Part shown: piece after piece, positions 12,595-27,431 of the stretch
How the letters are laid out: each line of letters starts with the position of its first letter
Position numbering within the stretch: the stretch's first letter is position 1
DNA from: a virus
DNA: 29,240 nucleotides
Direction: 5' to 3' (one strand)
IMG/VR virus record: IMGVR_UViG_3300010938_000115
Location: 1-29,240 of that record
Notes under the pieces: generated by a model
Told to the model about the DNA's origin: nothing
Database searches by the model: none
Seen by the model: only the letters and a program-made list of their open reading frames with translations
Position numbers and translations under genes: made by a program

Positions 12595-13677
12595 TCAAGA
12601 GGATTTTATTTTCTCAAAAACTTCCTTCCATAAATGAATTTTGCCCTTTATTGTCCAGTCTTTTAATACCTCCTGTTTTATTATCTCGCCTGTTTTTAAT
12701 CTTTTTTCTTTATTTTCAATTAAATCTTCAAAACAATTTATCCAGTCTTTTACTGTTTTAGCAAAATAGCCGTTTTTTTTGTCTTTTATGATTGATAAAT
12801 ATGGTCCAACTGGGGAGGTTATGGTTGGCACTTGTGATATTCCATACTCCATAACTTTTATAGGCGACTTATAGATACTAAAATCATTCTCTTCTAAGGG
12901 AGCAACTCCAATATCCCAAAATGGAGAATATTTTTTATAAATCTCAATCCAATCATAAAAATCCACTTTTCCTTCTATGTGCTCAACGTATGGCAAACTG
13001 TCTAACTCGGTTGGCAAAAAACCAAAGATTTGAAATCTTACCTTTCCTTGATATTTTCCCAAGATATATGCCAAGGCAGAGTGAAATTCAGTAAACAGCA
13101 AATCACCAACGTGAGATGTCCCTCCTTGATAAACAATGGTAATAACATCATCCTCAATATGTTTTGCTGGTATATAAACCTCCTCATCAATTAAATTTGG
13201 TAAAACAAAGATATTTCCTTTCTCATTTATTTTTTTTAGTTCTTTTTTTAATCTGCTGTTTGTGACTGTTATAAATGGTAAATCATTTAATATAGCCTTA
13301 TAGTTTCCTTTATTTTTCATAACCTCATCATAAACAACATTATAAGGTCTAACGGTTAGAGGATTATCATCTAAGTCATAAACATACTTCATTCCAGTTT
13401 TTTTTGAAACAACCGCCATATAAGAGTAGGCGATAGGATTATGATAATAGGAAGAAAAAACAATGTCATATTCTCCAAGTTTAAGCCAGGCCTCATCTAC
13501 CTCCTGTTGTGTTGCTTTTTTATTATTTATTACTCCCTTTTGAATATCAATCTGCCAGTCTGTTATTTTTTTTAAGTTGTTTAAGGGATTAATAATTCTC
13601 CACCAGTCAACGGCAGAGGTTCTTGTTTTTTTCTCGTTTGGTATCGTGTATTTCGTCTCAATCCCTAAAATTTTCAT
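12595..13677 (-). CDS. Glycosyltransferase, GT4/GT-B type
   Basis: This 360-residue protein has GT-B architecture: an N-terminal half with YDLDDN (about 100-105), then VLPNLID (158-164), YQGGTSHVGD (183-192) opening the donor-binding half, and APLEENDFSIYKSPIKVMEYG in two parts (259-279). The last carries the conserved Glu and the K-x-MEYG motif typical of family 4/1 transferases, which transfer sugars from nucleotide donors. The start is one base after the stop of the upstream gene (TAATATG). In phages such enzymes may glycosylate virion proteins, modify DNA bases or change host surface sugars. Being inside the virion arm favours a virion or surface target, which is inference. Confidence 0.82.
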   Translation of the reverse strand: MKILGIETKYTIPNEKKTRTSAVDWWRIINPLNNLKKITDWQIDIQKGVINNKKATQQEVDEAWLKLGEYDIVFSSYYHNPIAYSYMAVVSKKTGMKYVYDLDDNPLTVRPYNVVYDEVMKNKGNYKAILNDLPFITVTNSRLKKELKKINEKGNIFVLPNLIDEEVYIPAKHIEDDVITIVYQGGTSHVGDLLFTEFHSALAYILGKYQGKVRFQIFGFLPTELDSLPYVEHIEGKVDFYDWIEIYKKYSPFWDIGVAPLEENDFSIYKSPIKVMEYGISQVPTITSPVGPYLSIIKDKKNGYFAKTVKDWINCFEDLIENKEKRLKTGEIIKQEVLKDWTIKGKIHLWKEVFEKIKSS

Positions 13678-22296: not shown

Positions 22297-22325
22297 TTGA
22301 CAAACAGATTGGTTTTTGGTATAGT
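22297..22325 (+). promoter_or_regulatory. Promoter of the replication operon
   Basis: TTGACA (22297-22302), 17-bp spacer, TATAGT (22320-22325). The predicted start is about 22332, with a 20-nt leader made almost only of A and T before the ATG at 22353. Confidence 0.75.
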
Positions 22326-22352
22326 GATTTATAAATTTAAATTAAAATTAAA

Positions 22353-22619
22353 ATGAAAAAAAATCTTTCAATAATAACAACAGAAAACATTTTTAGACTT
22401 CGTAACTATCTTCAACAAATATCATCAATAAGTTTTACTTTTTCAAAAGTTAATCAAAGATATCCTATTGATAAAATATCAGAAGAAGAAGGACAGCAAG
22501 TAATAAAAGTATATGAAAATCTTTTAAAAGACACAGAAACTGTTATAAACACTTATAAAAATTTTAATTTAAATTTAAATAACAAAAATGGAAAACAAAC
22601 AACAAACTCCACAACTTGA
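22353..22619 (+). CDS. Small hypothetical protein at the head of the replication operon
   Basis: 88 residues, predicted helical: NIFRLRNYLQQISSISFTFS and EEEGQQVIKVYENLLKDTET, with an Asn/Thr-rich end. It overlaps the initiator gene by 32 bp, so the two are probably co-translated. No motif or family is recognised. Its leader lacks an SD. Confidence 0.6.
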   Translation: MKKNLSIITTENIFRLRNYLQQISSISFTFSKVNQRYPIDKISEEEGQQVIKVYENLLKDTETVINTYKNFNLNLNNKNGKQTTNSTT

Positions 22620-23394
22620 AAACGGTTTTATAAGAATAGCTACAGGTAAAGAAGAAAACGATATTTTAATGGCTCTTATTAAAGCAGATCTTAATTCTAC
22701 TGAATATCAAATAGTCTTGCTTGTTATAAGAAAAACTTGGGGATATGGTAAAAAAGAAGATTGGATAAGCATAACTCAATTTATGAAATATACAGGAAAA
22801 GGAAGAACAACTATAATAGAAGCTTTAAACAAACTAGTACGGAAAAGCGTACTAGTACGGAAAAGCGGACGAGGGATTAGGTCTTTGTATCGCTTAAATA
22901 AAGATTTTAATACTTGGAATAAACTAGTACGGAAAACTGGACTAGTACGGAAAACCGACAAAAGTAGTACGGAAAACCGTACTCCACTAGTACGGAAAAG
23001 CGTACTTCGTACTACAAAAGATAATATTACAAAAGAAACTATTACAAAAGATAATATAAATAATGAAAAAGATGAAATCATTCAATACTTCAATCAAGTG
23101 ATGGGCAAGCGCTTCAAAACACTGCCCGAGGCTAACCTTGAATATTGGCGGTCAATTTATTCAATTGACGAGATAAAGCGGGCGATTGATTTTATTCCCA
23201 CCCACGACTTCTGGCGGGATAAAATGGACTTGACTATTCTTTTCAGGCGTAAAAATCCAAAAGGAGAACCCGTTGATTATATTGGTCAATTGCTAAACAC
23301 TAAAAAACCCACCCAGCAAGCACAGGAGGGATTGAGTTCTTTTATGAACAGAATTGAAAAATGGAGAAAATTACAAGTTGATAAAAAAGTATGA
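22588..23394 (+). CDS. RepO-like replication initiator with the origin inside its gene
   Basis: 268 residues. The N-terminal 85 residues have the phage replication protein O pattern (NGFIRIATGKEENDILMALI, then STEYQIVLLVIRKTWGYGKK and ISITQFMKYTG), a winged-helix DNA-binding domain. Residues about 82-140 are a low-complexity region translated from six iterons (LVRKS/T repeats), followed by a TKDNI/TKETI/TKDNI section from three 15-bp AT-rich repeats. A C-terminal helical domain (about 170-268) could recruit the replisome. The arrangement copies lambda O, where the initiator binds iterons in its own gene. Here the partner downstream is a PrimPol-helicase, overlapping by ATGA, rather than a helicase loader. 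Confidence 0.82.
   Translation: MENKQQTPQLENGFIRIATGKEENDILMALIKADLNSTEYQIVLLVIRKTWGYGKKEDWISITQFMKYTGKGRTTIIEALNKLVRKSVLVRKSGRGIRSLYRLNKDFNTWNKLVRKTGLVRKTDKSSTENRTPLVRKSVLRTTKDNITKETITKDNINNEKDEIIQYFNQVMGKRFKTLPEANLEYWRSIYSIDEIKRAIDFIPTHDFWRDKMDLTILFRRKNPKGEPVDYIGQLLNTKKPTQQAQEGLSSFMNRIEKWRKLQVDKKV
22833..22999 (+). repeat. Iteron array, core ACTAGTACGGAAAA, six copies
   Basis: Copies start at 22833, 22851, 22923, 22941, 22963 (AG in place of AC at the start) and 22986. Spacings are 18, 72, 18, 22 and 23 bp; the first pairs share an 18-bp period. Several copies continue into an inverted half: the fifth reads AGTACGGAAAACCGTACT, a perfect 7-bp-arm palindrome around AAAA, while copies one and six have one mismatch. 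This suits dimeric initiator binding. Confidence 0.85.
23013..23057 (+). repeat. Three tandem 15-bp AT-rich repeats (unwinding element)
   Basis: TACAAAAGATAATAT at 23013-23027 and 23043-23057 flank TACAAAAGAAACTAT at 23028-23042. The period is exactly 15 bp and A+T is about 87 percent. They lie immediately downstream of the iterons and are read in frame as TKDNI, TKETI, TKDNI. Confidence 0.85.
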
Positions 23395-26215: not shown

Positions 26216-26800
26216 ATGATTAAAAAACTTAATTTTGAAAAAAAAGGATTGAACTTAAAAACAAAGATTTTGGTATTTTTACTTTTATTTATGATTTTTG
26301 AATACTTGAACTATAAGTTTTGGAGCAACTATTCAATCCAAAGTCCTATTTTAATAAAGATACAATCACCAATCATTAAAAAAAAGAGTGGCTATCCCTA
26401 TAGGCAAACAAACAATCCCCCCTTAAAATCGTCTAAAAATGGGCAAAATTTAAATGTTTTTGGGCAGGAGAGAGAAGAGAAAGAATTCCGTCCAGAGTTA
26501 GAAGCCATTTATATTCATTTCGGAAAAGATATTACCGCCTATGCTATAGCGTTAGCAGAGAGTGGGTTAAATTGCCAAAGGGTATCAAAGACAAATGACT
26601 ACGGACTTTTTCAAATCAATCAAGTTCATTTACCAAAGTTTAAGGAAGATAAGTTTAATTGCTGGGAGAATGCTCGGGTGGCAAAAAAAATATATGATGC
26701 TTCTGGCTGGAATGCTTGGGTAGCATACTCCACAGGAGTATATAAAAACCATTTAGAACAGGCCAAATTATTAGTTAATAGTTATTTTCAAAATAAATAA
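26216..26800 (+). CDS. Membrane-anchored lysozyme/transglycosylase-like protein
   Basis: 194 residues. An N-terminal hydrophobic segment (about 18-34) after a basic start predicts a signal anchor with the enzyme outside the membrane. A proline/Ser/Asn linker leads to a lysozyme-like domain from about residue 90: YAIALAESGLNC (Glu115 as the catalytic acid), NDYGLFQIN and WNAWVAYSTG, with Cys120 and Cys149 possibly disulfide-bonded. This pattern is that of SLT/C-lysozyme-like enzymes cutting peptidoglycan glycan strands. It is unusual in being among recombination genes rather than late lysis genes. It could be a lysin with delayed activation, or act on the wall early. Confidence 0.8.
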   Translation: MIKKLNFEKKGLNLKTKILVFLLLFMIFEYLNYKFWSNYSIQSPILIKIQSPIIKKKSGYPYRQTNNPPLKSSKNGQNLNVFGQEREEKEFRPELEAIYIHFGKDITAYAIALAESGLNCQRVSKTNDYGLFQINQVHLPKFKEDKFNCWENARVAKKIYDASGWNAWVAYSTGVYKNHLEQAKLLVNSYFQNK

Positions 26801-26801
26801 T

Positions 26802-27431
26802 ATGGCAGACTTAATAAAAAAGGAGGAAAACCAGTTAGCACCACCTAAAACTTTATATACGGTGTTAAACAAAAAAACACCACCAAAATTTATTAAAAAA
26901 AGAGTTGGAAGGGGCGGAAAATATTTTGATTATGTTGAGACAGGTTTTGTAATTGAACAACTAAACAAAGCCTTCAATAATATGTGGGACTTTGAAATAA
27001 TAGATAAACAAATCGGACAGGAAAAGATTTGGGTTTTGGGAAAACTGACAGTTAAATTCATTACTCCATTTGGAATTCAGACTATATCAAAATCCCAGTT
27101 TGGCGGGTCAGATGTTAAAAGGTCAAATGGAATTGTTATTGATATTGGAGACGACTTAAAAGCCGCCGCATCAGACAGTTTGAAAAAATGCGCCTCGCTT
27201 TTGGGAATAGCGAAAGACGTTTATTTTAGAGAAGACTATTCAGATGAGGCAGTAAAAGTAGCAAAGTTTGATGAAATGGTAGAAAAAGAAAAACCAGCAA
27301 CAGACAAGCAAAAGTATGCTATTAAAAATTTAATGAAGGAAGGGAAAATAAATCATAGCACAGATGTTGAAAAACTAACAATAAAGCAGGCGTCAGAACT
27401 ATTATCAGTTGCATTAAAATTAAAAAAATGA
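26802..27431 (+). CDS. Rad52-family single-strand annealing protein
   Basis: 209 residues. Residues about 40-145 match the Rad52/Sak annealing fold: YFDYVETGFVIEQLNKAFNN, WVLGKLTVKF, KSQFGGSDV, then IDIGDDLKAAASDSLKKCAS and LLGIAKDVYF. After a charged linker (about 145-165) a small helical domain (DKQKYAIKNLMKEGKINHST) may bind a partner such as SSB. It anneals complementary strands in phage recombination. The PD-(D/E)XK nuclease two genes on provides the likely resection partner. The start is one base after the lysozyme stop (TAATATG). Confidence 0.85.
   Translation: MADLIKKEENQLAPPKTLYTVLNKKTPPKFIKKRVGRGGKYFDYVETGFVIEQLNKAFNNMWDFEIIDKQIGQEKIWVLGKLTVKFITPFGIQTISKSQFGGSDVKRSNGIVIDIGDDLKAAASDSLKKCASLLGIAKDVYFREDYSDEAVKVAKFDEMVEKEKPATDKQKYAIKNLMKEGKINHSTDVEKLTIKQASELLSVALKLKK

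Follow-up and report, generated by a model that had tools for sequence, protein, structure and literature searches.

A predicted lambda-type replication origin inside the O-like initiator gene of an uncultivated phage

We analyzed a window of 29,240 nucleotides, the whole record of an uncultivated phage, in which an open reading frame (ORF) on the plus strand at positions 22588-23394, coding for 268 amino acids, very probably holds the replication origin of the phage, an origin of the lambda/P22 type lying inside the gene of an O-like initiator. Four features by which a lambda-type origin is recognized are present, namely, a Phage_rep_O domain, A-spaced dyads after the winged helix, an adjoining AT-rich element and a downstream helicase gene (Table 1). 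The first-pass annotation had proposed a lambda-like origin in this initiator gene, and that reading is upheld by the PF04492 protein, the neighboring helicase gene and the lambda/P22 geometry of the elements. As a predicted lambda-like origin, the locus is a well-supported further example of a known arrangement, and its uncommon trait is the presence of iterons inside the coding sequence of the DNA-binding domain itself.

Table 1. Features of the predicted origin and of its surroundings, in window coordinates
Feature	Position	Strand	Basis
Promoter-like site TTGACA-N17-TATAGT	22297..22325	+	consensus match only
Phage_rep_O (PF04492) initiator gene, predicted origin inside	22588..23394	+	Pfam, PHROG O-like families, ORF
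Folded winged helix-turn-helix coding part	22648..22896	+	AlphaFold2 model, pLDDT mostly above 90
Iteron 1, AGTACGGAAAAGCGTACT, codes end of recognition helix	22836..22853	+	sequence, AlphaFold2 model
Iteron 2, AGTACGGAAAAGCGGACG, codes first wing strand	22854..22871	+	sequence, AlphaFold2 model
Iteron 3, first of four at canonical linker position	22926..22943	+	
Iteron 4	22944..22961	+	
Iteron 5, perfect dyad, different frame (STENRT)	22966..22983	+	
Iteron 6	22989..23006	+	
Extra half-site CGTACT between iteron 6 and AT element	23008..23013	+	sequence
AT-rich element, three 15-bp repeats TACAAAAGATAATAT	23013..23057	+	TRF, GC content
PrimPol + DnaB-like helicase gene, 521 aa	23391..24956	+	PF09250 E=2e-19, PF03796 E=1.7e-24

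The product of the initiator gene matches the Pfam family PF04492 with an E-value of 1.5e-18 and 67.5 bits (cut-off 28.7), and its best matches in PHROGs are O-like replication initiators; as these fit best, we rejected an assignment to the DnaD-like initiator/loader class. We also rejected the iteron-plasmid (Rep_3/RepA) class of origin, since the Rep_3 profile gave no match to the protein at an E-value of 0.01, and since the iterons are dyads inside the gene. Directly downstream, and overlapping the initiator gene by 4 bases, lies the gene of the PrimPol and DnaB-like protein, which is presumed to be the helicase loaded at the origin, and for which only distant relatives (23% identity) were found among viral contigs. 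The promoter-like site upstream could drive transcription through the predicted origin, but sites of this kind are about as frequent in shuffled sequences (nine found versus 6.4 expected). A small ORF at 22353-22619, overlapping the start of the initiator gene, has a match below the cut-off (E=0.0082) to PF11417, the loader and inhibitor of the phage G40P helicase; it could be a helicase loader, for which PHROGs and the PDB gave no confirmation. The replication module also contains a gene for a Rad52/22-type annealing protein at 26802-27431 (PF04098, E=1.4e-8), and a glycosyltransferase-like gene is found among the structural genes at 12598-13677 (phrog_7162, E=2.9e-27).

Exact copies of AGTACGGAAAA occur six times, all on the plus strand, each at the start of one of the iterons of Table 1; the remainder of the 29,240-base record has no copy. 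The count of six iterons in the coding sequence of a RepO-like protein had already been given by the first-pass annotation, and it holds for the PF04492 ORF. The start-to-start distances are 18, 72 (four times 18), 18, 22 and 23 bp, hence the 18-bp-based spacing put forward for the array applies to the first three distances and not to the last two. Some of the iterons are indeed extended into AGTACGG-AAAA-CCGTACT dyads, as had been claimed: the dyad is perfect only at 22966-22983, the copies at 22836 and 22989 depart from it at 1 of 18 positions, and the three other imperfect copies have 2-4 mismatches. The AT-rich repeats that follow were likewise correctly described as three repeats of exact period, with a period of 15, 3.0 copies and 86% matches according to TRF, and ACAAAAGA starts within them at 23014, 23029 and 23044. 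The 60 bp from 23013 have a GC content of 15%, placing them in the lowest 0.7% of such windows in the record, and we presume this AT-rich element to be the unwinding element.

This layout can be compared with those of known origins. In lambda (NC_001416, iterons at 39034-39118), the origin likewise lies in the gene of an O-type initiator with all elements coding, and four A-spaced dyads follow the winged helix, as here. In P22 (M10074), the initiator gene 18 is directly followed by the partner replication gene 12, as the initiator gene is by its helicase neighbor here, and it similarly contains four dyads and ACAAAAGA repeats. The four downstream iterons are spaced 18, 22 and 23 bp centre to centre here, compared with 20, 24 and 23 bp in lambda and P22; counted from the final winged-helix codon, the first linker iteron has its centre at 17 bp here, 12.5 bp in lambda and 18.5 bp in P22; and the step of ACAAAAGA is 15 bp both here and in lambda, and 14 bp in P22. 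The AT element starts 16 bp beyond the midpoint of the final iteron here, but 10.5 bp beyond it in lambda, P22 and L278 (the closest initiator found, see below), and the half-site CGTACT sits in this excess of about 6 bp. On the other hand, the arms differ, being TCCCTC/GAGGGA in lambda, TTTACC in P22 and AGTACGG here; the downstream gene in lambda is P, a helicase loader, whereas here it is a helicase gene and not a P-type loader; and no iterons were found inside the winged helix of lambda or P22, whereas two are found here. The Stx phages P27 and 933W resemble the present phage in having six iterons, not four, before the AT-rich tract (PMC7466680), and their O can bind each single iteron, binding four of the six efficiently in the whole origin (PMC7466680). 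However, O is 13 residues longer in the Stx phages because of the two additional iterons (PMC7466680), whereas the two additional ones here fall in the winged-helix coding part. In both lambda and the Stx phages, iterons of this kind next to an AT-rich tract are bound by the O protein (PMC7466680, PMC5043065).

The initiator shares only about 30-42% identity with the other initiators found. The closest of them, L278 (IMG/VR contig 3300025117_000102), with 42% identity over the winged helix, keeps an in-domain iteron, although one rather than two, as well as the linker iterons and the three AT repeats, and its arms read AGTAGCC instead of AGTACGG. In this pair, the layout stays and the DNA word differs.

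An AlphaFold2 model of the initiator, built on 53 family members, has a mean pLDDT of 69.5, with values above 90 over most of residues 31-110. The modelled winged helix-turn-helix spans residues 21-103, with the recognition helix at residues 73-85 and the wing strands at 89-93 and 99-103, whereas residues from about 111 to 153 are of low confidence and unstructured in the model. Within the DNA coding for this unstructured stretch, in a linker that is predicted to be disordered, lie iterons 3-6 and the greater part of the AT element. Thus, the earlier placement of the repeats in the linker can be kept for the AT element and iterons 3-6. It does not apply to iterons 1 and 2, which fall in the region of the recognition helix and the wing. 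An in-domain copy with at most 2 mismatches in 14 positions is found only in this gene, L272 and L278, among 65 family genes with linker iterons. Iterons 1 and 2 code for the last part of the recognition helix and the first strand of the wing, respectively, so that the DNA-reading surface and part of the DNA that it reads would be the same nucleotides. Combined with arms that vary along with the recognition helix across the family, this could mean that PF04492 genes keep a record of their own recognition code, and that specificity and site are physically locked here, as well as in L278 and L272, and change only together; we regard this idea as tentative and rather unlikely.

A search of solved structures by sequence with the initiator gave no meaningful match, and a fold search gave weak MarR/CodY-like winged-helix matches, none with an E-value below 0.001. 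This weak resemblance to repressor domains would suit a reading in which the repeats are not an origin but operators for autorepression of the operon by the O protein, and dyads bound by a winged helix are typical of operators, too. We nevertheless consider such a reading improbable, since the upstream promoter-like sites have no copy nearby, all six being about 250-420 bp inside the gene, and since an AT-rich element follows the dyads as in lambda, where this layout is an origin.

We examined whether the six copies are explained by the peptide. When synonymous codons were resampled 100,000 times according to the codon usage of the genome, 98% of the trials contained no copy and 1.9% contained one copy, with a maximum of 3, and the same maximum was reached in 20,000 shuffles of the gene's own synonymous codons; the observed number is 6. 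The arginine codon CGG accounts for 8 of 21 arginine codons in the initiator gene versus 9 of 238 elsewhere. The first-pass annotation had described the repeat as translated into LVRKS units, which is borne out by five copies reading LVRK[ST], but not by the one at 22966, whose frame differs and gives STENRT. Based on the resampling, CGG and frame counts, we infer that the repeats are held as DNA, and that the repetitive peptide is a by-product. The alternative, that the repeat was selected as a peptide, an LVRKS basic linker contacting DNA or helicase, its likeness at the DNA level being due to recent duplication, would agree with the five of six units that read LVRK[ST] and with the predicted disorder of the linker. 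It is nonetheless very improbable given the unit in another frame, a codon choice far from random, and the family at large, in which copies lie in more than one reading frame in 63 of the 67 genes with repeats.

For the family survey, we collected PF04492 genes from phages, plasmids, prophages and viral contigs and reduced them to 87 non-redundant genes differing in the origin region, in which repeats were scored as at least three copies of a 14-mer, allowing 3 mismatches, in the 180 bp that follow the winged helix. By this measure, 75% of the 87 genes have repeats, compared with 3% and 5% for control segments of 180 bp before and after, respectively, and 60% of the 87 beat their own synonymous-codon shuffles. 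Relatives that have the protein but lack the repeats had been named as evidence against an origin of this kind, and both situations are encountered: L278 and the 75% just mentioned keep the repeats, whereas about a quarter of the 87 genes show none to the repeat finder, therefore a PF04492 protein alone is no guarantee of repeats. The motif ACAAAAGA is present in the linker of 33 of the 87 genes, but in only 1 and 3 of the control segments, and it is read in another frame in the Arsenophonus plasmid L122 and in L098. The commonest repeat spacings in the family are 24, 23, 19 and 20 bp. The arms vary by lineage, with TCCCTC in lambda, TTTACC in P22, TTAGC in many enterobacterial-type genes, and AGTACGG in the present gene and in L092/L093. 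These results suggest that in-gene origins are the rule in PF04492. The more alike two recognition helices are, the more alike are their arms, also when the rest of the domain is partialled out (partial r 0.41; 0 of 2000 permutations). Among pairs with less than 50% identity, however, the plain correlation is no more than 0.17, and the covariation of helix and arm partly reflects descent, which is not fully removed.

We rejected the idea that GTACGG-AAAA is one conserved word across unrelated replicons, as the layout is general and the letters are not. A paired-word scan for the GTACGG-AAAA iteron returned 31 viral and 30 genome stretches, most of the latter being simple tandem repeats in non-replication genes, and a stricter dyad pattern had 7 matches, whereas a control arm with the same base composition had 4. 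Among these 4, the match at L070 4494-4561 on the reverse strand lies in a phage initiator-like gene, where ATGTCAGTAAAAGCTGACAT dyads read MSVKADI; this gene has the same architecture with other arms. Two or three dyads of the AGTACGGAAAA type with a 24-bp step were also seen in L006 (119-190), L009, L010, L019, L027 and L066, outside initiator genes and just before or at the start of a small ORF, which by eye is terminase-small-subunit-like in most of them, and a different ORF in L066.

The dyads could also act at the RNA level, as mRNA hairpins controlling translation or stability, and the RNA does fold better than shuffles (z -5.4). But what is conserved is the directly repeated half AGTACGGAAAA, the second arm being degraded in iterons 2, 3 and 4; there is no Rfam match; and the family spacing of near two helical turns, together with the AT element, fits DNA binding better, making this reading just as improbable as that of a selected peptide. 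Least likely of all is a derelict or accessory origin, with the main replication elsewhere and the array a relic or decoy, for which the roughly 6 extra bp between the array and the AT element might speak, but the six identical 11-mers, the intact gene and the strong AT element look undecayed.

The phages most closely related by capsid, with 74-91% identity, have most of their structural-gene DNA in common with the record at about 80-92% identity, and with about 88% DNA identity outside the initiator they carry another initiator gene. In L073, the DNA match extends up to position 22,337 of the record and then stops, and another initiator is found at 3-575, with only loose CAACAGA-like repeats. 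At 315-1085, L075 has a DnaD-like initiator (phrog_2514, E=1.3e-35), whose winged helix is followed by four AACTAACAA repeats, and the homology of L075 to the record resumes with the gene at 26216. Searches of the capsid relatives, the records of which may be fragments, found no O, helicase or PF04492, and a search of viral contigs with the initiator protein found no relative. Since the capsid relatives carry a different initiator, in L075 one with its own repeats, the exchange appears to involve initiator and origin together, as a single cassette, and a joint replacement of initiator and repeats is what an in-gene origin would lead one to expect.

We infer binding, melting, helicase loading and actual initiation at the predicted origin from the lambda model (PMC5043065, PMC7466680, PMC3985674). 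Dimers of the initiator would bind the AGTACGG-AAAA-CCGTACT dyads through the winged helix and assemble on the array, and the resulting complex may, by analogy with lambda, bend or wrap the DNA. This assembly would open the adjacent 15-bp AT repeats, helped by negative supercoiling and probably by transcription across the gene, and the primase/DnaB-like helicase from the adjoining gene could then be placed on the opened strand. The GC skew, which the first-pass annotation had proposed as a check of the origin, turned out to be uninformative: it has a minimum near 22 kb, but this coincides with the place where the genes switch strand, and because it is confounded by gene strand, the minimum provides no independent support.

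The open-access papers that we searched cover the lambda and Stx origins well, and we found among them no survey of in-gene iterons across PF04492. If our reading is right, the lambda-type origin is extended to an uncultivated phage in which the geometry has been kept and the arm sequence replaced. Moreover, if in-gene origins are the rule in PF04492, as the survey suggests, the gene itself may reveal where many phage initiators are likely to bind, and a protein-DNA recognition code becomes testable. A layout that is family-wide, with letters that change with the protein, is more useful in this respect than a single case. An in-gene origin would also explain how initiator modules could move between phages as self-sufficient cassettes.
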